Below are positions 13,709 through 39,542 of a stretch of DNA of 40,082 nt, piece after piece. The notes below the pieces were generated by a model that did not search any database, had not been told where the DNA came from, and saw only the letters and a program-made list of their open reading frames with translations. The stretch comes from a virus. The DNA lies in IMG/VR virus record IMGVR_UViG_3300006735_000073, positions 1-40,082 of that record; one strand, 5' to 3'. Both the position numbers and the translations under genes were made by a program. How positions within the stretch are numbered: the stretch's first letter is position 1; each line of letters begins with the position of its first letter.

Positions 13709-13715
13709 AACCACC

Positions 13716-13889: not shown

Positions 13890-13899
13890 TTAAGCCACC

Positions 13900-15163: not shown

Positions 15164-16291
15164 TCATTGAAGGTCGCGGATTGAACCTTGACCCCCGAAG
15201 AAAGTAGTCCACACCTCACCCATGGTTCGGTAAAGACCTTCTTGACCGAGGCGGTTGATGGCGAATGGGTCGCCAGTTTCAATTCCGCTCTCAAAGTACT
15301 GCGTAGGCTTTGCGGTGGAGAAGTACACATAGTCCGTGTCCAACATGTAGATACGGCTGATACCGTCGCCAGCCATCTCCTTGGTAGGGATGATTGGAAC
15401 ACCGTTGTAGGTAGCCACGATGAATCCGGCTTCAACACCGGGAACACCCTTGACACCGTTGAAGGTGGGGACGACTCGCTTCTCTTCCATAAATCGCTGT
15501 TGTGCTTGGAGGAGTTGCTGGATTCGCATCAAAGTGTCGTATCCAGTGAGCATAACCTTGGGGTTGCCTCCTCTCTGCCAAATGAGGCGGAAGATTTCAT
15601 CCAAGTGGTCAAGCGAAAGAGTACGGTTGGCAGATGAACTGTCAGCCGAATCCTCAGCAAACGACCAAGTGTTGGCACTGCGGTCAATGCTGTACATGTC
15701 TTCGTCGTTGGTGTCGTAGTGCGTACCGGAAGTCATGCTGTTGTTTCCAGTGGTGATTCGGTCAAGCGACTCAATGTCGTTTCCTGCAACCGTGGTGACA
15801 TCCGTGGTCAACATGTCATTGATGTGCTCTGCGTGGTGCTTACCCATCTCTTCCTTGAGGACAGAGCGGATGTCGCCAAGTCCATCGTCCTTGTCGTTAA
15901 GGAAGATGGCCGTTTCGCTCATGTCAAAAGAGTGAGCAACGGTCTTTGGCTTTGCGGCCACATTTTGGAATGTTGGCTTGGTGGTGTCAGGTAGAGTACC
16001 GTTTTCTGCGATACCGCCGCCGACCGTCTTGGAAGGCTTAGCGGTGACGACACGCCATCCACTTCGGTCCCAAGGCTTCTTGGGGAGGATGGAGAAAGCG
16101 TTGAACTCTTGGTTCAATTGCGACCAAACTTTGCGTCCGTAGATGGCTTGGTAGGTACCAGCCGTCGTAGACAACAAAGGTGCGTCTGCTTTCAAAAGTT
16201 CACTACCACTGTAGGAGTAGCCCATGCTTGAGCCTGCACCATAGTAGTATCGTTCCATGTCGTTGATTGTTCTCATGTAGTTTCTTGCCAT
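15164..16291 (-). CDS. Major capsid protein, HK97 fold
   Basis: 375 aa; ATG preceded by GGAGTGATGAAGA. It directly follows the protease/scaffold gene, the standard HK97-type order. Sequence supports the fold: an N-terminal arm, an early extended region with GTYQAIYGRKVWSQLNQEFN (E-loop/spine entry), a long helix (LDHLDEIFRLIWQRGGNPKV), and a C-terminal strand series with YFSTAKPTQYFESGIETGDP and a final FFGGQGSIRDLQ. The N-terminal ~30 residues (Tyr/Met/Ser-rich) could be an N-arm. The protein assembles the icosahedral shell; the upstream protease would mature it. Family is inferred from context and pattern; strong enough to call as MCP. Confidence 0.88.
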   Translation of the reverse strand: MARNYMRTINDMERYYYGAGSSMGYSYSGSELLKADAPLLSTTAGTYQAIYGRKVWSQLNQEFNAFSILPKKPWDRSGWRVVTAKPSKTVGGGIAENGTLPDTTKPTFQNVAAKPKTVAHSFDMSETAIFLNDKDDGLGDIRSVLKEEMGKHHAEHINDMLTTDVTTVAGNDIESLDRITTGNNSMTSGTHYDTNDEDMYSIDRSANTWSFAEDSADSSSANRTLSLDHLDEIFRLIWQRGGNPKVMLTGYDTLMRIQQLLQAQQRFMEEKRVVPTFNGVKGVPGVEAGFIVATYNGVPIIPTKEMAGDGISRIYMLDTDYVYFSTAKPTQYFESGIETGDPFAINRLGQEGLYRTMGEVWTTFFGGQGSIRDLQ

Positions 16292-16306: not shown

Positions 16307-17173
16307 TCATTGTTGGTGGAAAACACTGCCAGCAAGTCTGTGGACATCTGACCAATCCATGTTTCCAAGTTCTGCCGTTGATGGGATTTCAACGGTGGAG
16401 GTTGATTTGCGAAGTTCCGTGCCGGTGGAGGACGAACCAATGTTGTCAATTCGTGTGCTCAGGTCGGACAGAGCCTTCTCAATGTTTGCGAGAGGGGTGC
16501 GTGCATCAAAGGAATGTGCGGCTCGTGCGTCAGCATCGGCTCGCATTTCCTTGGCGAGTCTGTCAGCGAAGACAGAGCCAAGGTTGCCCTTGAATTGCTC
16601 CTCAAGTGAAGCGGCCTTGTAGACCTCGTAAGCGGCCTCAAGGTCAGCGGCACTCACATCAGATGGAGCGAGGTATCCCTTAGCGACTGCGCCGCTACCG
16701 CCGGAGTTGATTTTGCCGATTGCGTTGGTGGAAGGAGAGCCGCCCTCTTGGGCACGGCCCTTGACTTGACCAGCGAAGTAGTCAGCACCGTCTCCGATTT
16801 GCTCAGGAGTGGAGCCGAGGTTGGCTTTGGAAACGCTGTCAAAGTGGTTGCGAGCACCACTGATGTCAACGCCTTGAGATTTCAAGGTGTTTTCCATCCA
16901 GTTCAGGTAGTCAGTGGTGATAACATCGCTGTATTCACCTTTGGCCATGTCGCCACCGCCGTACATTCCTTCTTTCTTGTCTTCGTCAGCCATTTCTTTC
17001 GCCTCGTCTTTTTCTTCGTCTTTTGGCTTGTCGCCTTTTGGCTTGTCGCCTTTCTTGTCAGCCATGTGCTCTTTCAAGCCTTCGGGCATTTCACCCTTTT
17101 CCATAGCATCAAGTCGTCCGTTCAATCTGTCCAAAACACTGGACAAATCGCCCAATACATTTTCATCACTCAT
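16307..17173 (-). CDS. Nested scaffold protein (internal start in protease gene)
   Basis: In-frame ATG at codon 180 of the protease gene, directly after the protease domain, has a strong AAGGAGGA seven bases upstream. It would give a 288-aa acidic scaffold identical to the C-terminal part. Lambda C/Nu3 is the known precedent for a scaffold read from within the protease gene. The internal Shine-Dalgarno is stronger than that of the full-length start, which appears leaderless, so scaffold alone may be made in excess. The internal Shine-Dalgarno is seen; use of it is inferred. Confidence 0.65.
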   Translation of the reverse strand: MSDENVLGDLSSVLDRLNGRLDAMEKGEMPEGLKEHMADKKGDKPKGDKPKDEEKDEAKEMADEDKKEGMYGGGDMAKGEYSDVITTDYLNWMENTLKSQGVDISGARNHFDSVSKANLGSTPEQIGDGADYFAGQVKGRAQEGGSPSTNAIGKINSGGSGAVAKGYLAPSDVSAADLEAAYEVYKAASLEEQFKGNLGSVFADRLAKEMRADADARAAHSFDARTPLANIEKALSDLSTRIDNIGSSSTGTELRKSTSTVEIPSTAELGNMDWSDVHRLAGSVFHQQ

Positions 17174-17710
17174 AGTTGTGTCCTCCTTCAATATACGGAA
17201 TGTCGCCTCCGGGTTTATACCTTTTTCACAAATGGTAACTTCGTGCAGTTCCAGTTTGGAGATTTCGGTGTAATCACCGTGTTGCTGGTCACTCTTACGC
17301 ATGCGCTTGAATGCCTGCCCTCCAATACTGAACCCACGAAGAGCCCCTTTGCGAATTTCATTAGCCACTTCACGGGCCTTTTCAATGTCGTCTCTCAACT
17401 GAATAACGACAAACATACCAGCGTCATCAACGCCGGATTTCCAAACACGACCGTCAGAATCAGTGTAGGCAGGTATAACTTCTCCAACTTGAATGTTAGA
17501 GTGTGCGAGTTGTACATTTCGGTAGCCATCGGCTTTCATGAAACCGTTGAAAGCATTCTTGAGAGCCCCTCTCGTAATGAGGTCGCCCTGCTTGTCAACC
17601 ATCTCTACCGAAGCATATCCGGCAATAACGAGGTCATTGTCCGCCTTGACGATGCTAATGTTCCCACTGTGCTGGACAGGGGAAGTTCGCAGAGTCAGTG
17701 CAGAAGCCAT
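16307..17710 (-). CDS. Prohead maturation protease fused to scaffold domain
   Basis: 467 aa from the ATG at 17710. The N-terminal ~175 residues are an HK97-type prohead protease (peptidase U35-like): DLVIAGYASVEMVDKQGD early, the catalytic His in NVQLAH70SNIQVGEVI, the Ser in ALRGFS128IGGQA, and KLELHEVTICEKGINPEA closing the domain. Residues ~176-467 are an acidic, Lys/Glu-rich, mostly helical scaffold (for example MEKGEMPEGLKEHMADKKG), ending at NMDWSDVHRLAGS. Such fusions remove scaffold and process capsid during expansion. The ATG lacks a Shine-Dalgarno but an AT-rich TATA-like box lies about 29 bases upstream. A second start at 17173 may give scaffold alone. Confidence 0.88.
   Translation of the reverse strand: MASALTLRTSPVQHSGNISIVKADNDLVIAGYASVEMVDKQGDLITRGALKNAFNGFMKADGYRNVQLAHSNIQVGEVIPAYTDSDGRVWKSGVDDAGMFVVIQLRDDIEKAREVANEIRKGALRGFSIGGQAFKRMRKSDQQHGDYTEISKLELHEVTICEKGINPEATFRILKEDTTMSDENVLGDLSSVLDRLNGRLDAMEKGEMPEGLKEHMADKKGDKPKGDKPKDEEKDEAKEMADEDKKEGMYGGGDMAKGEYSDVITTDYLNWMENTLKSQGVDISGARNHFDSVSKANLGSTPEQIGDGADYFAGQVKGRAQEGGSPSTNAIGKINSGGSGAVAKGYLAPSDVSAADLEAAYEVYKAASLEEQFKGNLGSVFADRLAKEMRADADARAAHSFDARTPLANIEKALSDLSTRIDNIGSSSTGTELRKSTSTVEIPSTAELGNMDWSDVHRLAGSVFHQQ
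17181..17188 (-). promoter_or_regulatory. Internal Shine-Dalgarno for nested scaffold
   Basis: AAGGAGGA on the minus strand, seven bases before the internal ATG at 17173, at the boundary between protease and scaffold. It is one of the strongest Shine-Dalgarno sites in the window. Confidence 0.65.
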
Positions 17711-17729
17711 TGAACCAAGAGACAACGCT

Positions 17730-17746
17730 CTTTGTATATAATTAAG
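17730..17746 (-). promoter_or_regulatory. Archaeal TATA-like promoter for protease/scaffold and capsid genes
   Basis: On the minus strand TTAATTATATAC is centred about 29 bases before the ATG at 17710. That fits an archaeal TATA box with transcription starting at or near the start codon; the gene has no Shine-Dalgarno. The TAA stop of the giant gene lies inside the box. Sequence is seen, promoter use is inferred. Confidence 0.6.
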
Positions 17747-20700
17747 TACGGAAGACAGCCTTGTCAGATGAGACCTCAAGAACACCCTCTTCCATAGGCA
17801 CAGTCATGCGTTTTTCAGACTCTTCGTCGTCTTCTTTTGGCTCAATGGTGAAATCTTCTCCGGGCCGCTTGCGATTGTCGTAGTCAGGCATAGTTTTCTC
17901 ATCGTTGAGATTGGTTGGACCCGATGGAGATTCAATCGGAGTAGCGTAATCTATCCCTAAGCCCATTGTACCAGTGCTTGATTGGCCAACGGCTCCTGCT
18001 CCACTCTTCAAAAATTTGTCAATGAGCATCAAGCCTTTGACCAAGACCTTCTTTTTCTGTTTCTCTTCCCACCAGTTCGTATCTTCTTCCTTGTGAGGTT
18101 CAATGAGCGGTTCGGCCTCACCTTCGGATTCGTGAATCTCTTCTTTCTCTGCTATCTCAAGTCCAGCCTTCAACAGCGCACCTGCTACTGGACTCCAATA
18201 CGGTCGCTGACTTTCAGCAAGACGAATCAGATAGTCGTTATTGGCCAGTGGGGAATGCACCGTCCACATATTACCTCGCTGTGTACACTTGTAGAGAACA
18301 TCGCCTTGAGGCATGGTAATACGAACACCCGACTTGGCTCTGCTGATTTCGCACAACCACTGGTCGCTTTCGGACTTAGCCAGCATACCAAGTGTTTCCC
18401 TACTAACCAACCCCTCGCCTTCGGCTTCTCCGATGATTTTGGAACCTGTTAGCGTGTACACATCATCACCACCGGTCGTTTCCACCTTGCCGACATTGGC
18501 AACATTAACTCTAACATGGTCACCTTCGTTGAATTTCTCAGGACTGTTGAACGCCACACCGACATCCATGTACATCTCACCTTCGGATTCTACAGCCCTG
18601 TCACCAATCTCTTCGTCTTTTGTAATCGGTCCAGTGCCAAGTCGGTAGGTGTAGGGGTCAGAACCTCGGCGCTCCAACACTCGCAAGACAACATCGCTAC
18701 CGGGTTTGAGCATGACCCACTTCGGATGGCGCAATTCGCCAACCATGTAAACTGATTTGGCATCCCTGAGCAAAAGCGACTCGTGTGTCTCCATCAAACT
18801 CTTTACCGTGACTTTGAGTCCTTCATCATCGGTTAGTCTTGTATCGCTGGCACTGGGAACATGAATGTTCTCAACACCCTCCAACCCACCTCGTACAATC
18901 TTGATACGGTCGTTGAGCGGTACATCGTGAACTGCTTTCTCAGCAAACTCAATCACATCAAAGATGTAGTAGCCTTCTTCGGTCTTGATGACATCGGCAT
19001 GGAAGTCCTCGTCTGTGACTTTCTTGAAGTTCTCTTTGTCTTCATCGCTGAGACTGAACGACTTGGACGACACTTCGTCATCCTCTTTCTTGACAAAGCC
19101 TCGCTCACCTTCGGGCATGTGAGAAACAATCCAGTCGCCTGTGAATCCTCGCAGGTCTTCAAGGTCGTCCAGTTCAAAAATACGGTGCATGGGTTGGAGT
19201 ATAGGTACTTTCTTGCCCAAGTCTTTGCGGATGATGTCAGGGTTGGTCAAGTCGGCCAATCCAATTTCAGCCTTGGTAGTGGAATGCTTGTCACCGTGAC
19301 GAGTGAGGCCTCGTTCGTCCGGCTTGAACTGCGCGCCCATACGGTCCAGTCTGTTGAGCCCGTCACGATGAACTTGGTGGTCAGGGTGTCTCAGCATCTC
19401 CATCCATTCGGAAGGTGCAACTCTGTCCCAAAACTTACCGAGCGGTTGAATCAAACGCTGTGCGTGCCCTTCGGGTACAGGCGTGATACTGACATTCCCG
19501 TTTCTTGAGATGCGGTACTTGAAGTTGGGGCGAAACTCATCGCCGAACTCGTGACGCAGACCTGTGGAATTGTACACGCTGTGAACAGAGTGAGCGTTGG
19601 GTCCGAACTGGTCAACGGGTACATCGGTCATTTCGTCAGAAGTCTCGGTGACGCTTTCAGGCATAGGTACACTGGGGTCGTTGGTCAGAATGCTGTCCAA
19701 CTTCTGCATGACATTCCAATAGTCGTTTTGGTACCTCAATGTCTTCTTTCCGCCGAACTTCACATTTTTCGGAGTAGAGGGTTTGGTCTCGTGAACAATT
19801 TCACCCTGCTTACTTTCCTTGCGCTGACGACGAGGGTCACTGTTGAACGCCAAGTGGTGATGAAGGCCAAGTTGTGAGTTGCGTTCTTCGGCTCTGTGGC
19901 CGACGGTGTTGTAAATTCCGTTGACCAATCTCAAGAAGTCCATATTTCTACTTCTTGGGTCTTTCTTCAACGATTCATGCTCTTTCTCAATATCAAGGTC
20001 GGGGTGTAATTGTTGAAGGAACTGGCGCATGGTCATGATAGGCGCTGAATACGAGGGGTCTTGCTGATAATTTGGAAGGAAGGTGTTTTGGATGTAATCA
20101 AGGAAGGTGGCGTTGTGGTATTCGTTGTTGGGGTCAAGTCCCAACTGTTGCATCAGTGCCTCGTTGTCGCCCAAGGTCTCGGCACTCATCATCGTCTCGT
20201 GACCTTGAAACGCCTGCTTGACCTGCGAGCCAATGTCAAGTTGCCCACTCAATCCCTCTTTGGTGACTCGGTTATGACCTCGTGTGCGAATACCGTGCTG
20301 GTCGTGCGGTACAGTGTTGAGATAGTCGTTGGCCATCATGGCGAACATTCGCATGTTCGCTTCCACTGTTTCGTGGTCCAAGTTGGGATTGAAAATGTGG
20401 TTGAAGAGTTCAGGGTCGGACTGGAGTAGATTTTTGAGATGCACTCCTGCACTGGTCATGGCGTTGGTATCGGCCACCAACTTGTCTTGCAGAATGCCGT
20501 CGTGACCATCAACAGAAAACCTTTGACCGCGCTTTTCACTCGCCGCTTCCAACCGAGCCTCCAAGTCGTCCAATCGTTGGTTGTTTTCAACCATGCGTCT
20601 ACGGATGTCTTCCATTCCGGCTTCGTCTTTGATTTCCCGATGAACCTCCATTGATTCTTGTAAAAGTGACATCTCTGCAATCGCGTTTTCATACTCTTCC

Positions 20701-23429: not shown

Positions 23430-23445
23430 TCGCATCACCAGCCGT

Positions 23446-24604: not shown

Positions 24605-26383
24605 CTAAGCCCCTCTCGGGTTCCTTGCATTAAGAATACCTTGACTGGCTTGCTCTACGCCGCCGGGTGTGGAGCCCCTCTGCTGAACACTGGACATAGG
24701 ACTACCGGACCCCATGCTGGTTCTGTTCTGCGGACTCGCAGGCCCTCGGTTTCTCAACCCCATACCTTCGCCGCCGGGGTTAGGCATACCGGCCTGCGCC
24801 TGTTGGGCCATACGAGCGGCCAACTGTGGAGGAATGTTGCGACTTGGTAGTGCTCCGGGCGTTCCCATACCGCCACCCATTCGCATACCGCCCATAGGTA
24901 CGCCACCGGGAGGCATACCGCCGGGAGGCATACCGCCGGGTGGTGCACCCTGTTGTGGTTGCTCAGCAGGGTCAGGTTGCTTGTAGATGAAACGAATGTC
25001 CCGATTAGCGTCTTCTTTGAGTTCAGGCTTATAGCCCAGCATCATCATGCGCTGAGCGATGTTGACTTCCATCTCATCTCTGCGTAGACGAGTGACTTCA
25101 TCCTCTTCTTCATTTGGATAAAGCGTGAGTTTCCAATCAGTAACATCCATTTGGGAAACCATTCTTGGGAATAAATGGTCAATGTATACTTTGTGACCAA
25201 ACTCTACAGCACGGTTGGTTACAAGAATCTGCATACCTTCGTTGTTCAATCCGCCGGATTTACCAGTGTCCATCATGAACACATTGGAAACGCCGTAGAA
25301 CGCCGCAATGCGCTGTCGCATTTCGTCACGGGCGGGTATGTACTGCATTTCTTCAAGGCTGTCCATGAGTTTAACCCAGTTGACACCACCTTTGCCGCTA
25401 CCTTCTGTTGCAATTTTAGGAATGTAATGCGGGTCTCTCTCCAACTTTTCATCAGTGGCTTTCCAAAATGCTTTCATTGATTCAAGATTGTCGGTGTTGA
25501 TACTGAGTATACCTCGCGGAATCCTACGCTTTGAATAGGCAGTGTACATGTAGTTGTCCATAGCCGTCAAAGTCATGGCCTGTCGCCACAGCGTGGACAC
25601 AGGCGACCTTCCGTACAACTTGGAAGGCTGATACTTACTTACATGGATGACTTCACCCTTGAGATAATACTGAGTTTTGCCGCTACCAGCAGTGTTGACA
25701 TGGTGTACATCTTCCATTTCAGTACCGCAAGTAGGACAGGATTTGTTGTCATCTGAATACGACTTTACTTCGTTTCGGTGAATTGGACAAACACGGAAAC
25801 GCCCTCCTCTTACACCACGCTTGTCGGCAATAATACGCATGAAAATGGGGTCGCCACGCACGATTTCTTTAATGCGATAGAACGCCATTTCATTGGTTTC
25901 AGGGTCAATGAAATACTCTTTGATGAGGATTAAAAAGGCATCATCAGTGATGTTAAGGTCGTACTCAATTTCTCTCATGACATCCATAAAAGTCTGTTCC
26001 ATAGAGTTGCGCTGTTCAAGAAGCCACCTTGGATACATCAACTGATTAGGGTCAGGCTCAATCAAATCCATGCTTCCGCATTCTTTGCATTCTTCTACAT
26101 CGTGCTGATATTCCTTGTCACAAGCAGTACACTTCTTGTGAAACTTTTTGTCCCAATAGTAGCCTCGGCGAAAAATTTCTTGTTGAAGTGTGCTGAGAAC
26201 CGTTCTCAAAATGAGGTTCTCAGTAGCAACTGCGTACAGAGCAGGAATGGTGATACCTTGTGCAAGAACAGGTTCTTGGATGCCCGTTGTCCACAAAGGC
26301 ATCTGCGGCTCAGGAGTGCTTCTCCTACGGAACGGATTACCGATAGATTCCAACAGTCTGCCAACTCTTCCTTTCTCTGCCAT
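24605..26383 (-). CDS. Portal protein with two zinc-knuckle insertions
   Basis: 592 aa from ATG 26383, which overlaps the upstream stop as TAATG and follows GGAGGG. Pattern is that of a phage portal: NLILRTVLSTLQQEIFRRG near the N-terminus, KGEVIHVSKYQPSKLYGRSP in the middle, then a long helical stem and the crown-like RQRIAAFYGVSNVFMMDTGK region. Two Cys pairs are inserted: C85-x2-C88 with C99-x2-C102, and C199-x2-H202 with C216-x2-C219; each should bind one Zn. The C-terminal ~130 residues are Pro/Gly/Met-rich (PPGGM repeats) and probably disordered. The protein forms the dodecameric DNA channel at the capsid vertex. Confidence 0.85.
   Translation of the reverse strand: MAEKGRVGRLLESIGNPFRRRSTPEPQMPLWTTGIQEPVLAQGITIPALYAVATENLILRTVLSTLQQEIFRRGYYWDKKFHKKCTACDKEYQHDVEECKECGSMDLIEPDPNQLMYPRWLLEQRNSMEQTFMDVMREIEYDLNITDDAFLILIKEYFIDPETNEMAFYRIKEIVRGDPIFMRIIADKRGVRGGRFRVCPIHRNEVKSYSDDNKSCPTCGTEMEDVHHVNTAGSGKTQYYLKGEVIHVSKYQPSKLYGRSPVSTLWRQAMTLTAMDNYMYTAYSKRRIPRGILSINTDNLESMKAFWKATDEKLERDPHYIPKIATEGSGKGGVNWVKLMDSLEEMQYIPARDEMRQRIAAFYGVSNVFMMDTGKSGGLNNEGMQILVTNRAVEFGHKVYIDHLFPRMVSQMDVTDWKLTLYPNEEEDEVTRLRRDEMEVNIAQRMMMLGYKPELKEDANRDIRFIYKQPDPAEQPQQGAPPGGMPPGGMPPGGVPMGGMRMGGGMGTPGALPSRNIPPQLAARMAQQAQAGMPNPGGEGMGLRNRGPASPQNRTSMGSGSPMSSVQQRGSTPGGVEQASQGILNARNPRGA
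24902..24945. repeat. Short GGM-coding tandem repeat in portal gene
   Basis: About three imperfect 15-bp units (accgccgggaggcat type) coding PPGGM-like peptides in the portal C-terminal tail. Confidence 0.7.
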
Positions 26384-27702
26384 TACAATCCCTCCGCCCA
26401 ACTCATGACAGTTTCACGGTCTACTCCCCATTCTCGCAAAGAGTCCTTGCCTTTAACGGTTCCATCTCTGTTAGAGAACTGTACAAACCGCTTCAACTGT
26501 GTTTTTCGCACGGGGTCTTTCTCTCCGATGTACGCCAATACTGCCTTTGCCTGCATGTCTTTCATTCTAAGATGAGGAGTTAAGTTGTCAAGGAGTTTGT
26601 TTAAATCATCCTTGGCATAAAAACTAACACGGTGCTGACTCCGTTGGTTGTCCGAGTACACTTTTTGGTCAAGTTGTAAAACGCCTGCACCAATATGCTT
26701 GTGCAACTCTTCACAGTGCATACGACCTCGGTCACCTGTGGCAATGAAGCCTGCTCTTGGCTCACCTCGTTCGGTGATGGTAATGTAACCGTCAGCGTCA
26801 AGGAAGCCAGCGGCATAAGCCCAAGCGTCTTTGAGAATTAAACCTGAACGGTCAACGCACATGTATTCTCCTTTGCGATGCGATTTGATGATGTTGATTT
26901 CTTCACCGTACATGTTCAACAACTTTGACAAGCGTGTGGAGTTAAGCCGTGGTACCCCTTTTTCTATAAGGTTCTGCGCTATCGTCCTTCCTTTCATCGC
27001 TCCTTTTTCTTTGAGTTCTTCTTTGGCAAGGTTCATCCACTTCTGTTGTTCTTTGGACAGATTATCAAACTGGTGAAGAGCGTTTCTCCAAACCTTTCTT
27101 GCGTCCTGCTTTTGTTTCATAGCACCAACCCAAGCGTTCTTTTCTTCTTCGCCCCACACATCATCAAACTCATCCAACTTAGCCAACGAGCCCTCGGCAC
27201 TGTCCCAAATATGACAGGCTCTGAGTAGACTGGATTTTCTCGTGTTACCAAACAAACGCAAGGCTCGTAGGTCTTTGTTGCCCAATCCCATTTTTCGCAT
27301 GGTGTCTTGATGACCGTCGGCCCAGTTCAACTTGGCCAGTGTCGCCTCTACTTCCAAACTTTTCAACGCTCGGACGCTGGCAATAATACTGTCAATTTCA
27401 CCCTTGTCTTCTTTGAAAACACGACGCGCTTTTCGCAAATTGCGAATTACGGCATTAGCACTCTTGCCCAATTTATCTTCAAACCAACCTTCTCCGGTTG
27501 GACTGAAAGGAGCATACTGCGGAACTGGTAAACTCTCTTCGCTAACCAACAAAGACTGCGATGCAATGGACTTGGCGATGGTTTCGTCTACCATTGGATG
27601 GCCAAGAAGATTACTGGCGATGGTGTTGAGAATCTCATGTCCCATGTCCACCGAATGAACGGCGTTTCCTACACTCAAACTGGGCCACATAGTATCGTCC
27701 AA
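26383..27702 (-). CDS. Head-region protein with C-terminal LAGLIDADG domain
   Basis: 439 aa. Residues 1-285 are helical and charged (AVIRNLRKARRVFKEDKGEI and EKNAWVGAMKQKQDARKVWR are examples). Residues ~290-400 carry one LAGLIDADG-type motif, AAGFLDADGYITI (297-309), followed by strands and helices that fit a half-domain of that endonuclease family, for example GRMHCEELHKHIGAGVLQLD and KDMQAKAVLAYIGEKD. One motif per chain normally means a homodimer. The gene lies between TerL and portal. The start is uncertain: TTG 27702 follows GTGATACC; ATG 27690 is the alternative. The domain could be a homing or packaging-related nuclease, or a DNA-binding relic. Confidence 0.8.
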   Translation of the reverse strand: MDDTMWPSLSVGNAVHSVDMGHEILNTIASNLLGHPMVDETIAKSIASQSLLVSEESLPVPQYAPFSPTGEGWFEDKLGKSANAVIRNLRKARRVFKEDKGEIDSIIASVRALKSLEVEATLAKLNWADGHQDTMRKMGLGNKDLRALRLFGNTRKSSLLRACHIWDSAEGSLAKLDEFDDVWGEEEKNAWVGAMKQKQDARKVWRNALHQFDNLSKEQQKWMNLAKEELKEKGAMKGRTIAQNLIEKGVPRLNSTRLSKLLNMYGEEINIIKSHRKGEYMCVDRSGLILKDAWAYAAGFLDADGYITITERGEPRAGFIATGDRGRMHCEELHKHIGAGVLQLDQKVYSDNQRSQHRVSFYAKDDLNKLLDNLTPHLRMKDMQAKAVLAYIGEKDPVRKTQLKRFVQFSNRDGTVKGKDSLREWGVDRETVMSWAEGL

Positions 27703-27720: not shown

Positions 27721-29202
27721 TCATGCTGTGTACCAAGTTGCTCCTGCGACATTTCGTTGAGGTACATCGCCAAACCAACTATCTACACCTTCAAGGTAGT
27801 CGTCCAGTAGAACAATCGTACCTCTGAACTCCTTTGTTGCCCAGTTTGCTAACGCTACGCTGACAGCCAAGTCGTCGTGACTGCCGACTGATTCCAATCT
27901 ACCGTTCTTCTGCATGCCGAACCGACTTAGTTCGGTCTCAAGTGTCCTTGTGAACTCTTTGCTTCTCTCGTCGCCCCAAGGTGTCTTGATGTGCCCTTGC
28001 TCAAAAGCAAGAAGTAGACTCATGAACATGGACTCTTTCTTGGCCCTTGTCGTCATAAAAATTTTGATAGGCATGTCTGCCGCCATCTCTCGCATCTCGG
28101 CTTCAAGCATACGCTGGAAGTTGTTGCCTTCCAATTCAATGAGGTCGGGTTGGAACTTGCTGTTGAGTGCAACCATCATACGCTTCTGTGCCATAGACGA
28201 CAATCCCTTTTCGTGAACACTGTGAATCAACTGCTTCACATCTTCACCGGGCAACATACGCATGACCGTCATGGCCGTGTAGTCAGCGTTTTTGTCCGAG
28301 GAGATAGCAGGGTCGTAGCCAATGAAGTGCTGTCCGAAAATACCCGTAGACTCTCCTTTGTCGTCATACTCGTACTCGGCTTTGTCCATGAGTCGGATAC
28401 TGGGGTCACGAGCCTTTTCAAGCAGACTCATGGGGAACATACTGGACATGTCGTGAATAGGTTCACAGAGGTATTCACGAGCGAACTTGATAGCAGGCAT
28501 GGATTCTTCACGCTGTTTAAGAGCCGCAAGGTCCCATCGCTGAGGCCAAAGTGCTTCTCCTTTGGTGTTGATAGCAGGGTAAGTCTCTACAGTGAAGGTG
28601 TCTTTGTCCTCCAGTTCGGCGTACAAATCGTTGTACGAAAACGGCGTACCGACCATCATCAGACGACCAGTGTGGTGAAGGACAGGAAGAAGAACGGTGT
28701 AAAACCAGTCAGCCGCTCGTTGCAGTTCACCGGAAGTGGTACCCCACAAGATGTCATCGCAAACAACGACATCAGGGTGGAAACCACGAGTAGCACCACC
28801 AACCGACTTAGCCATAATACGACTGCCGTTGGTGAACTCAAAGTAAGATTTAGCCCAAGGCTTCCCTTGAGGCTTGAGTCCTGTGAGTATGTCAGCAGAC
28901 TCAATGTTGTTTCGGATGAAGCGCATGTGTTCCAAGGTCTGCTCAAGGCTGTGACTAAACACCATGACATGCGTGTTAGGATTAAACGCCGCCAGCCACA
29001 GAGCGTAAGACATGAAGAACACGGACTTACCGTGGTCACGAGATGCCTTGACGCAGTAGTATTTGTTCTCATTCAAACCCTTGAGCCACTGTTCGTGATG
29101 GTGTGACAGTTCAAAGTCAAGAATCTCAGTGAAGAAATAAGCGAACGACTTCTTTGACATTTGCGTGTCCATCTCATGAACGAGGTCATTGATGTCAGCC
29201 AT
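27721..29202 (-). CDS. terL: Terminase large subunit (packaging ATPase-nuclease)
   Basis: 493 aa from ATG 29202, overlapping the previous stop (TGATG) with GGTGG upstream. Motifs are in order: Walker A-like ASRDHGKS at 53-60, Walker B VVVCDD at 145-150, the coupling motif MMVGTPFSYNDLY around 182-194, and the RNase H-like nuclease with GYDPA (D297), LIELEGN (E358) and GSHDDLAVS (D443/D444). This is the motor that packs viral DNA into the prohead and cuts it. Length is typical. The family call is firm from motifs. Confidence 0.96.
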   Translation of the reverse strand: MADINDLVHEMDTQMSKKSFAYFFTEILDFELSHHHEQWLKGLNENKYYCVKASRDHGKSVFFMSYALWLAAFNPNTHVMVFSHSLEQTLEHMRFIRNNIESADILTGLKPQGKPWAKSYFEFTNGSRIMAKSVGGATRGFHPDVVVCDDILWGTTSGELQRAADWFYTVLLPVLHHTGRLMMVGTPFSYNDLYAELEDKDTFTVETYPAINTKGEALWPQRWDLAALKQREESMPAIKFAREYLCEPIHDMSSMFPMSLLEKARDPSIRLMDKAEYEYDDKGESTGIFGQHFIGYDPAISSDKNADYTAMTVMRMLPGEDVKQLIHSVHEKGLSSMAQKRMMVALNSKFQPDLIELEGNNFQRMLEAEMREMAADMPIKIFMTTRAKKESMFMSLLLAFEQGHIKTPWGDERSKEFTRTLETELSRFGMQKNGRLESVGSHDDLAVSVALANWATKEFRGTIVLLDDYLEGVDSWFGDVPQRNVAGATWYTA

Positions 29203-30209
29203 CAATTACCACCTTGTTGTTGTCGTTCAAGTGCTTCTTGTTCTTGAATGCGCTGAAGGCTTGTGTCAACTACGCCCACAACACCCGGATTCGTGCCCGG
29301 ATTTGGCATCTCGTCTTCTTCTTCCTCTGTATCTTCGTCTCTATCGGTGACGGCTACCTTATTGCGATTAAGTGCACTGTTCGTAGCATTCGTATTAAAT
29401 TGAGTACCCCTATTGTTATCCTTGTCGTTTTCAGCACCTGCACCTTCGGCTGGTGGTTGGGTAGGTGGCGGTAACATAAGTTGCGGAGGTACAGGTAAAC
29501 CGGCGGCGTTGGTAGGTGCCACTGCGCCGGAGTGGTCTACCGGGTCTTCTTCAAACTGGGCAGGCTCAACTCTGACAACATTTCCGGCTCTTTGATTAAA
29601 CATGTTTTGCTTTTCGGGGTCAAATGCACCTTGGAAGGCCTCTTCCATCTGTGCCATTCGGTCAGCACGGCCTTTGTCTTCTTTACCCCGCTTTATACCA
29701 AATGCTTTCGCCCTTGCCATCCTTTCTGCCTGTGCTTCTTTTGCTTGTTGAGCGGCAAGTTCGTCTTCTTGGTTCACTTCTTCAACCCGACGACGCATTG
29801 TTGCGGGATTTATACGGTCGTTGACATCGTATCGTCTGTTTTCAAAACGACCCCTTGCGCTCATACGAGCATAATCCCTTTTTGCTTCTTCGTCATAATC
29901 AGCACGAGCCTGTCGTTGACGACCTACGCCTACGAGTTTGCTTCTGCCGAGTGCTCCACCGAGTGCTTTGCCTTGGGCTCCGCCGCTTATCATTGCTTGA
30001 ACGAGGCCACCAAGACTACGATGTTTTCCAGCAAGTGCGCCAAGTACACCGACAGTGCCTCCAGCGAGGCCACCTAATCGTTCTCGCTTCGTTCTACCCA
30101 CGGCTGGTCCGCCGCTACTACGACCGCCGCCCACCATCATAATAGGCGGACCGCCACTAACCGTGTTGTAATTTGGCTCAATGGCCTTTACAACGAGAAC
30201 CTTGTCCAT
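29202..30209 (-). CDS. Gly-rich, basic then acidic low-complexity protein
   Basis: 335 aa; ATG overlaps the previous stop (TGATG) after GAGGTGA. The first ~100 residues are Gly/Leu/Arg-rich (RLGGLAGGTVGVLGALAGKH, SGGAQGKALGGALGRSK), which could insert in or lie on a membrane or bind DNA. Then a charged helix rich in Ala/Arg/Glu (about 105-200), a Pro/Asn linker and an acidic tail with DEDTEEEEDEMP. Nothing resembles a known enzyme. It sits between a His-rich protein and TerL in one coupled operon. A packaged or internal virion protein is possible. Confidence 0.82.
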   Translation of the reverse strand: MDKVLVVKAIEPNYNTVSGGPPIMMVGGGRSSGGPAVGRTKRERLGGLAGGTVGVLGALAGKHRSLGGLVQAMISGGAQGKALGGALGRSKLVGVGRQRQARADYDEEAKRDYARMSARGRFENRRYDVNDRINPATMRRRVEEVNQEDELAAQQAKEAQAERMARAKAFGIKRGKEDKGRADRMAQMEEAFQGAFDPEKQNMFNQRAGNVVRVEPAQFEEDPVDHSGAVAPTNAAGLPVPPQLMLPPPTQPPAEGAGAENDKDNNRGTQFNTNATNSALNRNKVAVTDRDEDTEEEEDEMPNPGTNPGVVGVVDTSLQRIQEQEALERQQQGGN

Positions 30210-33561: not shown

Positions 33562-33571
33562 TCATCTCACC

Positions 33572-34273
33572 TCACAATATGTCAAGGATGTCGTCATCCA
33601 CTGTTCCGTCTGCGTTGGCGAGTAGGCTGGCCTTGACTCGCTTCCAAACATCGGGACTCTCTTTGCCTAATTCAACTTTGAGGACATTGATGGTATTATT
33701 GGCGACATTGGTCGTTGGTTCGGCCCACTTCTCTTGGTAAGCACTGAGGTCTTTCAGCGTCTCTCTAACTTCCTTGTGAAGTCGTACCATGTCGCTGATA
33801 ACGCCATCATCGTGGATATTGGTTTCTAACATGTACTGAGCCAGTTTACCATTGAGTCCTTGGACATTGTTTCGCAGGATGTCAACTTCTTCGCCGACTT
33901 TGATAGCGACCACTGCCGCCGAACTCTTCTTGACAAGCGGTTGAAAGTGATGCTTCATGTGTCGGTATACCGAATCTTCACTGCATTCTAACTCATCAGC
34001 GATACTCTCACTGGTACGGTCGCCTTCAAAGTAAGCAACTTCCAATGCACTGCGATGGTCACTGGTGCAAACTGCACAGGAATGGTTCGCAGTGCTGTGG
34101 TATTCACCAACATGGTTTTTCATATGACGCTCCGCAGTATTGGTTCGCCAACCCATATCCTTGTCCATCACTTGAGGGTTAGCGATACCGTCAATGATAC
34201 TCTGTTCCAAGGCATCTCGGTCAGGATGTTGACAAAAAGGACAACTTCGCTTTGTCTGACGAACCCCTCCCAT
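33572..34273 (-). CDS. terS: Putative terminase small subunit with two Zn-finger/HTH modules
   Basis: 233 aa. ATG at 34273 lacks a Shine-Dalgarno; earlier readings to 34315 start with TTG and are weak, so the mRNA may be leaderless. Two modules repeat: C11-x2-C14 with H50-x3-H54, and C66-x2-C69 with H105-x3-H109. The second includes SESIADELECSEDSVYRHMK, a helix-turn-helix. Tandem CCHH/HTH proteins upstream of packaging genes are often small terminases, and this gene lies a few kb upstream of TerL in the same strand. Residues ~115-190 form a coiled coil. Call rests on motif and neighbourhood. Confidence 0.7.
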   Translation of the reverse strand: MGGVRQTKRSCPFCQHPDRDALEQSIIDGIANPQVMDKDMGWRTNTAERHMKNHVGEYHSTANHSCAVCTSDHRSALEVAYFEGDRTSESIADELECSEDSVYRHMKHHFQPLVKKSSAAVVAIKVGEEVDILRNNVQGLNGKLAQYMLETNIHDDGVISDMVRLHKEVRETLKDLSAYQEKWAEPTTNVANNTINVLKVELGKESPDVWKRVKASLLANADGTVDDDILDIL

Positions 34274-34294
34274 ACCATATCGCAGGAGGCTGAC

Positions 34295-34660
34295 ATGAAT
34301 AACCTTTTTGAACAAAGTGCCCTACGAACACTGATGAAACTTCCTCGTATCAAGCCCAAAATCATGGGTGTTCCTGTGTCTATAGAGACTGTGAGAAACT
34401 TGTCAAGAGCAGGAAGAGACATTGCTATGATGAGATATGTTCCTGATGATGTTAGGCAGATTCGGCTTGACATTTGTAAAGGATGCCCCAGTTGGAAAAA
34501 CTACCGCTGTACCGAATGCGGCTGTCAAATGAGGGTCAAGGTCAGCCTAACATCAAGCGAGTGCCCCCTCAAGAAATGGGGCAGGCATGTCCCGTCGTTA
34601 AATCTCGGAGATGCGGGAATAGATACCAGTGAGCATGAAAAACGCTCCAAACAGTCCTAA
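34295..34660 (+). CDS. Small zinc-ribbon protein, only plus-strand gene
   Basis: 121 aa from ATG 34295, preceded by AGGAGGCTGA; a longer upstream reading overlaps TerS coding. C61-x2-C64, C72-x2-C75-x-C77 and C90 form the CxxC...CxxCGC...CP pattern of small phage Zn-ribbon proteins that often lie near terminase genes. The N-terminus is basic and helical. It is divergent from TerS with only 21 bases between starts, and its last 63 bases overlap the 3' end of the minus-strand membrane gene. Strong Shine-Dalgarno and motif make it real; role unknown. Confidence 0.82.
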   Translation: MNNLFEQSALRTLMKLPRIKPKIMGVPVSIETVRNLSRAGRDIAMMRYVPDDVRQIRLDICKGCPSWKNYRCTECGCQMRVKVSLTSSECPLKKWGRHVPSLNLGDAGIDTSEHEKRSKQS

Positions 34661-34840
34661 CACAAGATAAGCCATGCTGTTGCTGTCCATTTTACTACTG
34701 GAAGTTAGCAACAACATAGACAGCGTGACAATAATAGTCAAGAGTTGAACCATTATCATGTCAACGATGACACTCTTTCTTGGAGCAAAAATCTCCATCG
34801 CTGTGTTGGATAAGCCCGTAAATCCGTAATCTCTCATCAT
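34598..34840 (-). CDS. Two-helix membrane protein
   Basis: 80 aa; GGTGA four bases before ATG 34840, and a second ATG follows at once. Two hydrophobic segments at about residues 24-46 and 56-74 flank a short SSSKMDSNS loop; the N-terminus (about 20 residues) is polar with APRKS next to the membrane. Its 3' end overlaps the plus-strand Zn-ribbon gene tail to tail. It is the last gene of the membrane/GTPase operon. Size and topology suggest a membrane anchor, or a holin-like protein, but no family is recognised. Confidence 0.8.
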   Translation of the reverse strand: MMRDYGFTGLSNTAMEIFAPRKSVIVDMIMVQLLTIIVTLSMLLLTSSSKMDSNSMAYLVLGLFGAFFMLTGIYSRISEI

Positions 34841-34844
34841 GTTA

Positions 34845-35483
34845 TCACCGTGTCCCCATCATTCTGCCCATAAAACTACCAGCGGCAGAGCCCGCTTTGT
34901 CCATGAATCCGTCATTTGCCAAAGCCGCGTTCAAAGCCCCTCCCATCATGGACTGCTGTGCAAATGCCGCAATCTGCTGTTGTTGCATTTCTGCCTGTTG
35001 AATACTTTGTTGACTGGCCATTTGCAGTGAACTAAATTGATTTTTGACATTCTCGGCACTCATGGTTTGAAGATTGTCAGGAAGTGAAGTGACATCCATT
35101 TTCATTTTACCTTCCTTTTCGTCAATGATGAACTCAGCGTTTTTGAGAACTTCCAACACTGAAAAACTCACGAGGTCGTTGAACATCTGCAAGAAAGTTG
35201 CCATCTGTGCTCCAACGACAAAACGGTCAATGGGTGCAAGTGTACGCATCATGGCCAGTTGAATCTCCATTTCGCTGGGAGGTGCCATTGGTTGTTGCAT
35301 CATACCTTGTTGCATACCTGCTCCTCCCATCATGCCGCCCATAAACGCGTTGTTTTGGGCTTGTTGCATCATGCCATTTTGCTGTGCAAATGGGTTCATT
35401 TGAGAGTTCATAGGAGGAGCGTTAGATTGCGCTCCAAGGTTAAGTGCACCGTTTTGTTGTTGTCCATTGTTGCCAAATAACAT
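34845..35483 (-). CDS. Gln/Met-rich protein in the GTPase operon
   Basis: 212 aa; ATG after GAGGTGA, its stop TGA lies within the next Shine-Dalgarno. Residues ~1-70 are Gln/Asn/Met/Gly-rich and probably disordered. Residues ~75-145 look folded (MRTLAPIDRFVVGAQMATFL, then NDLVSFSVLEVLKNAEFIID), followed by a Gln-rich helix (ASQQSIQQAEMQQQQIAAFA) and a Gly/Met-rich end with GSAAGSFMGRMMG. There are no transmembrane segments. Unrecognised; operon with GTPase and membrane proteins is the only clue. Confidence 0.82.
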   Translation of the reverse strand: MLFGNNGQQQNGALNLGAQSNAPPMNSQMNPFAQQNGMMQQAQNNAFMGGMMGGAGMQQGMMQQPMAPPSEMEIQLAMMRTLAPIDRFVVGAQMATFLQMFNDLVSFSVLEVLKNAEFIIDEKEGKMKMDVTSLPDNLQTMSAENVKNQFSSLQMASQQSIQQAEMQQQQIAAFAQQSMMGGALNAALANDGFMDKAGSAAGSFMGRMMGTR

Positions 35484-35492
35484 TTTCTCACC

Positions 35493-36494
35493 TCACTGTG
35501 TAAATAGCCCTTGCTCTGTTTGTGGGAGGGCACCTTGATTCATAACACCATTGGTCACCTCTTGGGGTAAATTTTGAGCCACGCTGGGTGGCGGGTGTTG
35601 CATAATACCGAGATTACCGATAGCATCGGAAAGAGTCGGCGTCATGTTGGTCATTTCCTGTTGAAACAATCTTAGGTCAAAGACAATCATAGTCACATCG
35701 TTGATGCCGGTTTCCGGGTTTTTGTAGTGAAGGAGGTTAATACCGTTGTAAGCCTTGGAGTCTTTTTCCAACTGCATAAAGAACGGCTCATACTTCTTGA
35801 GGAGTTCAGGAGTATTGTCTTTCTTTCGGACTATGGATATTGGCACTGCTACTGTAGAAACCCCTTTCTTAACCATTTCTCGCATACCTGTTTTGGTCTT
35901 GTTGTGGTCTTTGTCAGCCTCGGATTCCCACTTGCACAACAAATGATACAAGTGAAGATGTTCAGGGCAGTAGGTACCCTTCATTTTGCGACCGTTCGTA
36001 ACTTGTTCCCGTGCCACAAACGGCTCCGGCGTACCTGTTACTGGATTTTGCCAATACATTTCCCACAAACTCTTACCGCTTTCCTCATCGGTAATTTTAG
36101 CGTACAAGTTGTCGTACTTGATGAGTTCTTCGCAGTCGCACCCGTCAATGACGCATAGGTTGCTTTGACGATTGTAGCGATATTTCCGTCCCCAAACCCA
36201 GCGGAGAGGGTTAAACAAACTTCGCTTTGTAGGAGTTAGCAACTTACGAGCCTGCTTGATGTCCTGTTTGCGAGCCTTTCTTGGGTCAGGATGACGACTT
36301 GGGTAGAAGTTCACTTTAGGTACCTCAATGTTCTGCTTGGCTATTTCTTGCATACCTTGCTGTGCGGCTTGCATTTCCATCAACTGTTCATGACTTGCGT
36401 TCCCTTGCTGGCCCAAGGCCACCAAATGAGACTGACTCATGTTTGCCAAATTGGCGTCACTCTGCGGTACTCCATATCCTCGTAATCTCATCAT
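35493..36494 (-). CDS. Basic protein with Cys/His cluster in the GTPase operon
   Basis: 333 aa from ATG 36494, five bases after AGGTGA; an earlier GTG overlaps the Shine-Dalgarno. The first ~60 residues are Gln-rich. A basic region (RKARKQDIKQARKLLTPTKR) leads to CVIDGCDCEEL and, about 70 residues later, YCPEHLHLYHLLC; these Cys/His residues could form a Zn site. The C-terminal part (about 200-270) has mixed alpha/beta pattern with VSTVAVPISIVRKKDNTPEL and DVTMIVFDLRLFQQEM, then a Pro/Gln tail. No family recognised. It is coupled directly after the GTPase gene. Confidence 0.82.
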   Translation of the reverse strand: MMRLRGYGVPQSDANLANMSQSHLVALGQQGNASHEQLMEMQAAQQGMQEIAKQNIEVPKVNFYPSRHPDPRKARKQDIKQARKLLTPTKRSLFNPLRWVWGRKYRYNRQSNLCVIDGCDCEELIKYDNLYAKITDEESGKSLWEMYWQNPVTGTPEPFVAREQVTNGRKMKGTYCPEHLHLYHLLCKWESEADKDHNKTKTGMREMVKKGVSTVAVPISIVRKKDNTPELLKKYEPFFMQLEKDSKAYNGINLLHYKNPETGINDVTMIVFDLRLFQQEMTNMTPTLSDAIGNLGIMQHPPPSVAQNLPQEVTNGVMNQGALPQTEQGLFTQ

Positions 36495-36504
36495 TTTCTT
36501 CACC

Positions 36505-37221
36505 TTAACTTAACAAATCCAACATTGTATTTTCTACATTCCAACCAATTTTCGTAGCCATCATTCCCCTCTTCGTAGGAACACCCGCTTTTTGGAGGCG
36601 TACGAGGTCTTCTCGGAACGGGTCAAACATTCTGTGTTCACCAAGGCGTTGCTGTTGCCACAGTATGTTTGCTTGCTCATCCCACCATTCATCCGCTTTG
36701 TTTGCCACCAACATAACCATTTTCGGAACATATCTCTTACCTTTCCAGCGACTTTTCAAATTACGATAGCGATACTGCCTATGAACGATTGCATCTACAA
36801 GAAATTTAAATCCTCCTACGGCTTGCACAGCAGGGTCTCCTCCTTGTGTACAGCGATGGTCAAACAAAAATATGATGGCCTCTACTTGTCTCGCTACCAT
36901 GTCGTCCGTCCAAAGATTCCAAAAGCGTTCTTCTCCAGCAATGTCAGAGGAATATACCACACGCTTGTCGCCTTTCCAAGAAACACGCTTCCGAGTCGCA
37001 CCGGGAAGTAAAAAGCGATTGAAACCGGGTACTTTGAAGTGCTTGGTACGCTCGTCAAGTGGAATGTCCTCCATCTCTCCGGGCGTTGTCATGTAGCGGT
37101 CAAGCGTAGTTTTACCAACCATTGTCGGACCGTATACGCCTACTCGCCTTGGTTTCCAGTAGTGGTACAACTCTTTGGCGAACACCACGCCGCCAACAAG
37201 TGCGCTACCTCCCAGTGACAT
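36505..37221 (-). CDS. Ras-superfamily small GTPase
   Basis: 238 aa from ATG 37221 (TGATG overlap, GGGGAGAG upstream); a longer TTG reading is rejected. The G motifs are present in order: G1 GPTMVGKT at 31-38, G3 DIAGEERFWNLW at 93-104, G4 NKAD at 174-177, and a G5-like ATKIG at 222-226. The G3 pattern is like DTAGQERF of Ras/Arf/Rab, but the catalytic Gln is Glu. Residues 1-22 (MSLGGSALVGGVVFAKELYH) form a hydrophobic/amphipathic lead that could sit on a membrane. The neighbours upstream are small membrane proteins. Such GTPases act in vesicle and membrane dynamics; a virus-encoded one in an archaeal virus is unexpected. Confidence 0.88.
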   Translation of the reverse strand: MSLGGSALVGGVVFAKELYHYWKPRRVGVYGPTMVGKTTLDRYMTTPGEMEDIPLDERTKHFKVPGFNRFLLPGATRKRVSWKGDKRVVYSSDIAGEERFWNLWTDDMVARQVEAIIFLFDHRCTQGGDPAVQAVGGFKFLVDAIVHRQYRYRNLKSRWKGKRYVPKMVMLVANKADEWWDEQANILWQQQRLGEHRMFDPFREDLVRLQKAGVPTKRGMMATKIGWNVENTMLDLLS

Positions 37222-37478
37222 CAGTCTCTCCCCGAAAAAATAGCGTTTGACCAACTCTGCAACTTACCTTTGAGCCAATCACCTGAAGATTCCCACAGAT
37301 TCCAATCAGTGTAAAATTCAAAAGCACTGACAACAAATGCAGTTGTCGTTGAAAATATCACCACTTTCAACCAACCCCAGCCGCGTTCGTAAGCAACATC
37401 CACCGTGTTGGCGATGTGCATGCTACGAAGGGTTTCCTCCACAGCGTCGTCGCTGGGGGTCTTGAAAATGCGACCCAT
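37221..37478 (-). CDS. Single-span membrane protein
   Basis: 85 aa; ATG 37478 after GTGATGCCAC. One hydrophobic segment at about residues 36-56 (WLKVVIFSTTTAFVVSAFEF) separates an acidic N-terminal part (DDAVEETLRSMHIANTVDVA) from a Trp-rich C-terminal part (TDWNLWESSGDWLKGKLQSW), which may lie on the membrane surface. It precedes and overlaps the GTPase gene by one base, so both are made together. It could recruit the GTPase to a membrane; inference from neighbourhood. No family recognised. Confidence 0.82.
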   Translation of the reverse strand: MGRIFKTPSDDAVEETLRSMHIANTVDVAYERGWGWLKVVIFSTTTAFVVSAFEFYTDWNLWESSGDWLKGKLQSWSNAIFSGRD

Positions 37479-37484
37479 GTGGCA

Positions 37485-38075
37485 TCACTTGTCCTTTTTC
37501 TTGAATGTCCCGTCAGCGTTTCGCTGAGGTTCCTTGCCATCGTCAAAGTCAAATCCGAGAGAAAGAGGTGCAGAGGTCTTAGCAGGTACGAAGTCAACAG
37601 TACCGGTACCAGCACCCTTCATGCGTTGCTCAATCCAAGGTGGTGTTTTACCGGGGTTATGTTCCATCCAGTTAAGTTCGGACTCCAATTGTGCCTCTTG
37701 CATGCGGATTTCCATGTCTTGTCGGCGTCGGTCAAATGACATTTCCATGCTACGGTAGCGTGTACGGCGTTGCTTTTCCTGAGAAGCAATCCTTGCCCGT
37801 TCGTCCATACCTTGCTGGAAGAACATTTTGAACAAGTAGTAGGCTACACCTTGTACTGCAAATGCGGCCATAGCGTAAGTGATTCCGTTGACTGTCGGGT
37901 CATCCAATTTAAGCCAGTAACCTGCATCAAAAACAGCAATGGCTATCCCTATTGACACGGCTTGGGTGAGAATCAAACCCATCAATCTTATCTCTGCTTG
38001 GTCAGCGTCTCTCATTGGCTCTCTACCGCTCTGCACAACAATCCCTCTCGGTGTTCGCACCACTGTTGTACTCAT
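37485..38075 (-). CDS. Two-span membrane protein with coiled coil
   Basis: 196 aa. ATG 38075 after GTGATACC. Hydrophobic segments at about 31-52 (LMGLILTQAVSIGIAIAVFD) and 63-86 (VNGITYAMAAFAVQGVAYYL) flank a short loop, then a charged helical arm (~87-145, for example SMEMSFDRRRQDMEIRMQEA) likely coiled coil, and a Lys-rich end. The basic arm is probably cytoplasmic. It is the first gene after the terminator-like gap at 38076-38153 and thus may head the GTPase/membrane operon. No family recognised. Confidence 0.83.
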   Translation of the reverse strand: MSTTVVRTPRGIVVQSGREPMRDADQAEIRLMGLILTQAVSIGIAIAVFDAGYWLKLDDPTVNGITYAMAAFAVQGVAYYLFKMFFQQGMDERARIASQEKQRRTRYRSMEMSFDRRRQDMEIRMQEAQLESELNWMEHNPGKTPPWIEQRMKGAGTGTVDFVPAKTSAPLSLGFDFDDGKEPQRNADGTFKKKDK

Positions 38076-38153
38076 AAAGGTATCACAAAAATATGAAAGG
38101 AGGGCCGAAGAGGGAGAGAGTGCCCCTCCGACCCGGTCACTGCGAAGCAGTCA
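38076..38153 (-). terminator. Intergenic gap with two hairpins and a T-rich end
   Basis: On the minus strand after the TGA at 38154: a perfect ACTGC-TTC-GCAGT hairpin (38139-38151), then GGAGGGGC (38122-38129) that pairs with GCCCTCC (38099-38105, one bulge), then TTTCATATTTTTG. This is the longest gap in the window. A stem followed by a T-rich run is terminator-like, and the T-rich stretch just before the 38075 gene could also hold a promoter. Function is inferred. Confidence 0.45.
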
Positions 38154-39353: not shown

Positions 39354-39531
39354 GTATGCTGGCAGGCCTTTTATCGTGATAAGCCTGTTGGAGATACGAA
39401 TAATGCTCAGAAGCCTCAATCAGCAGACACAGAGCCTCGTCGCTACCGTCCTGCAACTCTTGGATTTTCTGCAAATTCCACTTGCTGACCTTTAGAATCT
39501 CAACAAACAGGTCGTCCCAAATGCGTTGCAA
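39328..39531 (-). CDS. Small hypothetical protein with TTG start
   Basis: 67 aa; GAGGAG six bases before the TTG at 39531 decides the start, and no ATG lies nearby. The product is helical (IWDDLFVEILKVSKWNLQKI, then DEALCLLIEASEHYSYLQQA) with a short extended end. It overlaps the next gene by 26 bases and starts 12 bases after the DUF5872-like gene's stop. No family recognised. Confidence 0.6.
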   Translation of the reverse strand: MQRIWDDLFVEILKVSKWNLQKIQELQDGSDEALCLLIEASEHYSYLQQAYHDKRPASIHVGVFFTD

Positions 39532-39542
39532 GTCGTTCTCCT

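Follow-up and report, generated by a model that had tools for sequence, protein, structure and literature searches.

The window analysed here, a 40,082-nucleotide stretch of viral DNA (IMG/VR record IMGVR_UViG_3300006735_000073), encodes on its minus strand a Ras-superfamily small GTPase of 238 aa (36505..37221), whose gene belongs to the core set and sits in a cassette common to two groups of viruses, rather than being the oddity of a single virus. Neither the collections searched nor the papers available to us yielded a precedent for such a core, cassette-linked GTPase in an archaeal tailed virus.

A conserved GTPase gene and its cassette in the late module

The reading frame of the GTPase starts with an ATG at 37221 and runs to a stop at 36505, which agrees in coordinates and product length with a first-pass annotation made from the sequence, where no strand was named. 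In the sequence TGATG this ATG overlaps the end of the 85-aa gene that lies upstream, which makes joint translation of the two genes probable. The nucleotide-binding motifs recognized in that annotation are indeed present in the correct order, i.e., G1 (G31-PTMV-GKT38), G3 (D93-IA-G96-E97), G4 (N174-KAD177) and a G5-like motif (A222-T-K224). A scan of IMG/VR returned 174 relatives of the GTPase, and conservation was counted over 102 distinct proteins. All 102 keep G31, G36, K37, T38, D93, G96, N174, K175 and D177, and show G1 (GxxxxGK[ST]), G3 (DxxG) and G4 (NKxD) in order, as does a second subfamily described below; the motifs can thus not be attributed to chance. The G5 column reads MAT[KR] in the group of the window virus and VSAK in the second subfamily, and the assignment is confirmed by this canonical SAK in the second. 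Further invariant residues are T46, G48, E49, R58-T59, W101, W104 and D121, among which T46 and R58-T59 are both candidates for the switch I threonine of G2, in a region that is poorly modelled. The family also has conserved motifs of its own (TTPGEM, RTxH, WNLWxDD, EH and GWNVE). From the intact nucleotide-binding motifs, the window protein is predicted to bind and hydrolyze GTP.

At the position of Ras Gln61, the window protein carries a glutamate, as had been noted before, but this is not a trait of the family: the catalytic glutamine after DxxG is present in 46 of the 102 distinct relatives, with E in 44, D in 11 and H in one, so that the glutamate of the window virus is one of several alternatives. 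In the second subfamily the position is occupied by Glu in 65/65 proteins. The glutamine is not strictly defining, and other branches of the Ras superfamily lack it. Compared to its nearest distinct relative, the window GTPase shows a dN of 0.036 at a dS of 1.2, and compared to the other relatives 7–13% of nonsynonymous sites differ with synonymous sites near saturation; the gene is under strong purifying selection. The hydrophobic N-terminal lead proposed earlier corresponds to a helix (residues 3–22) in the AlphaFold models. This helix resembles a TM segment in 88% of the proteins of the second subfamily and is only mildly hydrophobic (1.07) in the window protein itself.

In the group of the window virus, the GTPase is the third gene of a minus-strand cassette located upstream of the terminase gene, whose order is kept in essentially all of 82 loci. 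It begins with a 196-aa membrane protein (37485..38075) in which a clear hydrophobic segment is accompanied by a weaker one and then by a charged tail, followed by the 85-aa protein (37221..37478) with a single hydrophobic segment (residues ~37–55) that scores a marginal 1.52 in the window virus at a family median of 1.64. Downstream of the GTPase follows a 336-aa Cys/His protein (35493..36503) with a candidate metal site formed by C-x4-C and GTYCPEH, each Cys and His of these motifs being kept by 96% or more of 95 relatives. The next gene encodes a 212-aa Gln/Met-rich protein (34845..35483), a probable cassette member that has a counterpart in matching position in the second virus group. Beyond these five lies a gene (33572..34315, minus strand) for a 247-aa protein, possibly a small terminase or a regulator in view of a weak helix-turn-helix signal, which is tied to the cassette in 82/82 loci of the window group only. 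The cassette is a conserved unit of the late module and not dispensable cargo. A DUF5872-like protein (Pfam E 3e-9) is encoded at 39543–40061 of the window, and similar pieces occur at varied places near the cassettes of relatives.

Fold and placement within the Ras superfamily

As a single query, the window GTPase gave no match in Pfam or PHROG and no meaningful one in NCBIfam, and phmmer against the PDB returned nothing usable; the usable family signal came solely from relatives and profiles. Among 42 relatives, Pfam models for Roc (25 proteins, best 4e-4), Arf (7, best E 0.005) and Ras (5) were matched, all of which describe Ras-like GTPases, and in a PDB search with the family profile Rab33B was the sole GTPase (E 0.43). 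Two AlphaFold models (pLDDT 76 and 78, i.e., moderate overall, with low confidence around the P-loop and switch I) have the strand and helix order of small GTPases (beta1-alpha1-beta2-beta3-alpha2-beta4-alpha3-beta5-alpha4-beta6-alpha5) and an extra N-terminal helix. Small GTPases fill the top 50 PDB matches listed by Foldseek, led by Rab27B, Sec4 and Rac3 (E about 1e-7 to small GTPases), and the matches at E<=1e-3 number 803 for the first and 640 for the second model, at TM-scores of about 0.4–0.65. In local profile-profile (HH) comparisons with Asgard reference sets, which were built for this purpose and are small (E-values refer to single comparisons), the family scored 96% with Arf, 96% with Rag and 95% with Ras. 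Column-shuffled Arf controls reached 0.1–0.7% and the viral terminase, itself a P-loop protein, at most 1.3%. Membership in the Ras superfamily (TRAFAC small GTPases), as initially suggested, is hence firm on the agreement of fold and profile comparisons, and neither a fold other than that of small GTPases nor phage P-loop ATPases as closest homologues were encountered. The profile scores do not set Arf, Rag and Ras apart, and at about 20% identity over about 130 columns a tree with Asgard GTPases would not give a reliable placement; the specific candidates named at first (Arf, Rab or OapA) are not supported.

With Arf (PF00025), the viral protein shares the GKTT P-loop, NKxD, an N-terminal membrane-type helix and a G3 region in which D-x-G-G is followed at equal spacing by Leu-Trp (DLGGQ-x5-LW in Asgard Arf, DIAGEERFWNLW in the window, DIGG in most relatives). 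It differs from Arf by an identity of only about 20%, by the lack of a PF00025 match of the window protein above the Pfam gathering score, by the Glu replacing Gln in the window virus, by ~12 extra residues after switch I and ahead of beta-2 and a longer alpha3-beta5 region, and by the lack of a Gly2 for myristoylation, and profile scores do not bring it nearer to Arf than to Rag or Ras. The Rag/Gtr1 and Rab/Ras families (PF04670, PF00071) share the fold, the order of G1–G5 and a profile match of about the same level as Arf, whereas the viral GTPase lacks both a C-terminal Cys for prenylation and a clear signature of any subfamily and has motifs of its own.

The closest functional parallel described so far is ArvA (OapA) of Haloferax, a small GTPase with an amphipathic N-terminal helix and a neighbouring Zn-ribbon protein proposed as its GAP, whose knockout abolishes vesicles and whose overexpression leads to vesicles in excess (PMC10927574). 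Like the ArvA(OapA)-ArvB-ArvC system, the viral locus combines a small GTPase carrying an N-terminal membrane helix with an adjacent gene for a Cys-rich metal-type protein. The P-loop and switch I region is locally ArvA-like (GxYG...GKTTL and IPxxRT), and the ArvA profile aligns to residues 20–61 of the viral GTPase only (HH 83%). In contrast, the G3 motif of ArvA is the Era-like DMPG, and the viral locus adds TM-like proteins and sits in a late module. OapB (PF09846) and OapC had no Pfam match among the ten proteins scanned (window 29202–40061), and homology to ArvC was not seen. By analogy, we infer that the viral cassette may work like ArvA(OapA)-ArvC although it lies outside that family.

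The viral structure collection BFVD contributed 39 matches at E<1e-3, all from giant viruses of eukaryotes, which likewise encode Ras-superfamily GTPases. Such Ras-type proteins of giant viruses are already known. They are annotated as eukaryotic-type Rab, Ran and Ras, whereas the gene described here is part of the core set of an archaeal tailed virus, within its morphogenesis block.

Virus identity, distribution and a second virus group

The minus strand of the window also encodes the terminase large subunit (27721..29205), the portal protein (24605..26401), the head maturation protease (16307..17785) and an HK97-fold major capsid protein (15164..16291). The matches of portal and capsid are confined to archaeal tailed viruses, with the Druskaviridae of HVTV-1/HCTV type on top at about 29–32% identity (about 32% between the capsid protein and that of HVTV-1), and these matches and the gene context support the early assignment of the GTPase to the late, structural gene block of an archaeal tailed virus. 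Between terminase and portal, an HNH-endonuclease-like protein is encoded at 26383–27702, and HVTV-1 has an HNH gene at the same place; between portal and head protease lies the gene for a 1,910-aa protein (17742–23474) that has no PHROG match.

The window region recurs at near identity in a 101-kb contig (G001). This contig is organized in two oppositely directed gene blocks and encodes a family B polymerase, a group II chaperonin, an HMG-CoA-lyase-like protein and a clamp-loader-type AAA protein, a gene set of the type found in the marine, Poseidoniales-associated Magrovirales (PMC10768690, PMC12999244). With that order it shares a genome size within ~90–110 kb, the family B DNA polymerase, chaperonin and HMG-CoA lyase, the two divergent blocks, and structural genes near those of Druskaviridae. 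Judged by gene content, the window virus belongs to the magrovirus-type tailed viruses of marine archaea; the assignment to marine Poseidoniales as hosts follows from this Magrovirales-type gene content and not from comparison with exemplars, no magrovirus record being among the phage-collection matches to terminase, portal and capsid.

Among related marine contigs, found via the capsid protein, the GTPase is present in 20/20 that reach the locus, as opposed to 0/3 haloarchaeal relatives that do so (HVTV-1, HCTV-5 and a 104-kb relative). A real loss of the gene in some marine contigs was considered and rejected, because all of those without GTPase end before the locus. In INPHARED no record matches either GTPase subfamily, in line with the initial impression that prokaryotic viruses offer no precedent. 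This lack of relatives in the records of prokaryotic viruses searched here suggests that membranes or particle assembly are regulated here by a switch known mainly from cells. We know of no earlier core small GTPase of a prokaryotic virus. Titles and abstracts on magroviruses, Poseidoniales or archaeal viruses and GTPases contained no prior report, although the 2017 and 2025 magrovirus genome papers might carry an earlier annotation.

No close cellular homologue of the GTPase was found in the genomes searched either. The sole two genome matches, in an Asgard and a Maricaulis genome, were rejected as cellular homologues, both being 8-kb contigs with a viral cassette in mislabelled bins. Magrovirus-type contigs (L082, L083, L287, L288) occur in MAGs labelled as Asgard archaeon and Maricaulis sp., with at least three different viral-type GTPase variants in the Maricaulis bin. 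This binning is likely contamination and could mislead searches for cellular homologues.

The second GTPase subfamily, reached via a mislabelled MAG, is represented by 188 IMG/VR stretches and is 32–37% identical to that of the window. Near-complete contigs of this group are mostly 92–97 kb long; their polymerase is split, and their chaperonin has a lower score with the TCP-1/cpn60 model. The group thereby resembles Aoguangviridae, for which split PolB and GroEL have been reported. The contig L318 (IMGVR_UViG_3300021958_000021, 184,733 bases) has two polymerase and two chaperonin copies and is, given this doubling, probably made up of two ~92-kb genomes joined in assembly. The first five cassette genes have the same order as in the window group (seen in full in two contigs) and follow shortly after the major capsid gene, between it and the tail genes, with the cassette neighbours present in about 77–79 of 80 loci. 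Homology across the groups is clear for the GTPases (HH 99.9%) and for the Cys/His proteins (HH 94%, E 1e-7), which in the second group too follow the GTPase and in both groups conserve C-x(2-4)-C and GTYCPxH. The 212-aa protein and its 212–218-aa counterpart match weakly (HH 12%), although nothing else in that row scores higher. HH comparison found no homology across groups for the two small membrane proteins, which agree in position and hydrophobicity only, the cassette neighbours being TM-like in both. That the cassette is intact although its genomic place differs argues well for a functional unit, and an origin before the split of the two groups is suggested by its occurrence in both.

A possible role at the host membrane

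We tentatively favour, at a little below an even chance, that the GTPase acts as a membrane-bound switch which, together with its Cys/His partner, works on the host membrane in virus assembly or exit. The GTPase would be held on the host cytoplasmic membrane by its N-terminal helix together with the two small membrane proteins of the cassette, and would cycle there between GTP- and GDP-bound forms under control of the adjacent Cys/His protein, a putative GAP, exchange factor or effector. Recruitment or membrane deformation driven by GTP might then serve assembly of virions at the membrane and/or their release, with a bending or organizing of the host membrane modelled on ArvA-ArvC vesicle budding in haloarchaea. 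Manipulation of host membranes or vesicles had been proposed from the GTPase alone; the adjacent conserved TM-like genes and the Cys/His protein make it more plausible, though binding to the membrane, the roles of the partners and the stage of the virus cycle are all still inferred. Counting against a membrane switch are the marginal hydrophobic segment of the 85-aa protein, the mildly hydrophobic N-terminus of the window GTPase, the small membrane proteins that HH comparison did not match across groups, the local likeness to ArvA and the moderate confidence and TM-scores of the AlphaFold models.

The main rival is a soluble, GTP-dependent switch of particle assembly that acts on virion proteins in head-tail joining, packaging or capsid maturation, the cassette then being an assembly toolkit and its TM-like proteins parts of the virion or tape-like. 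The location between capsid and tail genes in the second group and upstream of the terminase in the window group would suit this, as would a conservation resembling that of other late genes, but membrane-type neighbours are conserved in both groups, HVTV-1 and HCTV-5 share homologous portal and capsid proteins and lack the GTPase, and we know of no tailed-virus assembly GTPase; we regard it as unlikely, though a serious contender. The position inside the structural cluster and the membrane-type neighbours could also be read as signs of a packaged GTPase that, with the small membrane proteins, helps DNA to cross, or reseals, the host membrane upon entry. An intracellular late role fits a GTPase switch better than a single entry event, and no tailed virus is known to us to deliver a small GTPase, which leaves a role in entry quite improbable.

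Two further readings concern the protein itself. Its host-type fold and fully kept nucleotide-binding motifs would be expected of a decoy of host small GTPases that binds host regulators (for example of motility, polarity or vesicle formation) and alters host physiology. Genes for host takeover usually have a fast turnover and differ among relatives, unlike this strongly conserved gene of invariant place, and with no close cellular homologue found, a decoy appears improbable. That the protein might be a P-loop NTPase other than a GTPase, only resembling Ras, could be argued from the failed single-sequence searches and the low-confidence P-loop model. We consider this highly improbable in view of the guanine-specifying NKxD in 102/102 relatives, the Roc, Arf and Ras matches, a fold search listing small GTPases only, and negative HH controls.

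Returning to the membrane-bound switch, the cassette may represent an ancestral core small-GTPase membrane system (GTPase, metal-binding partner and membrane anchors) that buds, wraps or releases tailed virions through the archaeal membrane, a possibility that we consider less likely than not. Archaeal cells lack bacterial-type peptidoglycan, and to our knowledge the exit of tailed viruses from them is largely unknown. A GTPase and membrane-protein cassette in abundant ocean viruses thus provides a defined, testable candidate for archaeal virus exit and, if confirmed, would mean a GTPase-driven, virus-encoded route of assembly or exit in prokaryotic viruses. It would also add a new branch, apparently older than the split of the two groups, to a superfamily central to eukaryotic membrane traffic.

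Two other features of these genomes deserve mention. The peptide xxAWx(1-2)[LVIM][LVIM]K, mostly near the N-terminus, has 12 occurrences among 10 hypothetical proteins of G001, against 0.18 expected in shuffled sequences, with occurrences in the window within 38154–39419 and 32101–33561 (twice) and in minus-strand genes of G001 (the contig of L003) at 85970–100750 and 13602–14432; it is possibly a shared targeting or virion-packaging signal. At the other end of the window (1–2960, minus strand), the G001 counterpart belongs to one ORF of 5,489 aa, which probably encodes a giant tail protein extending beyond the window.
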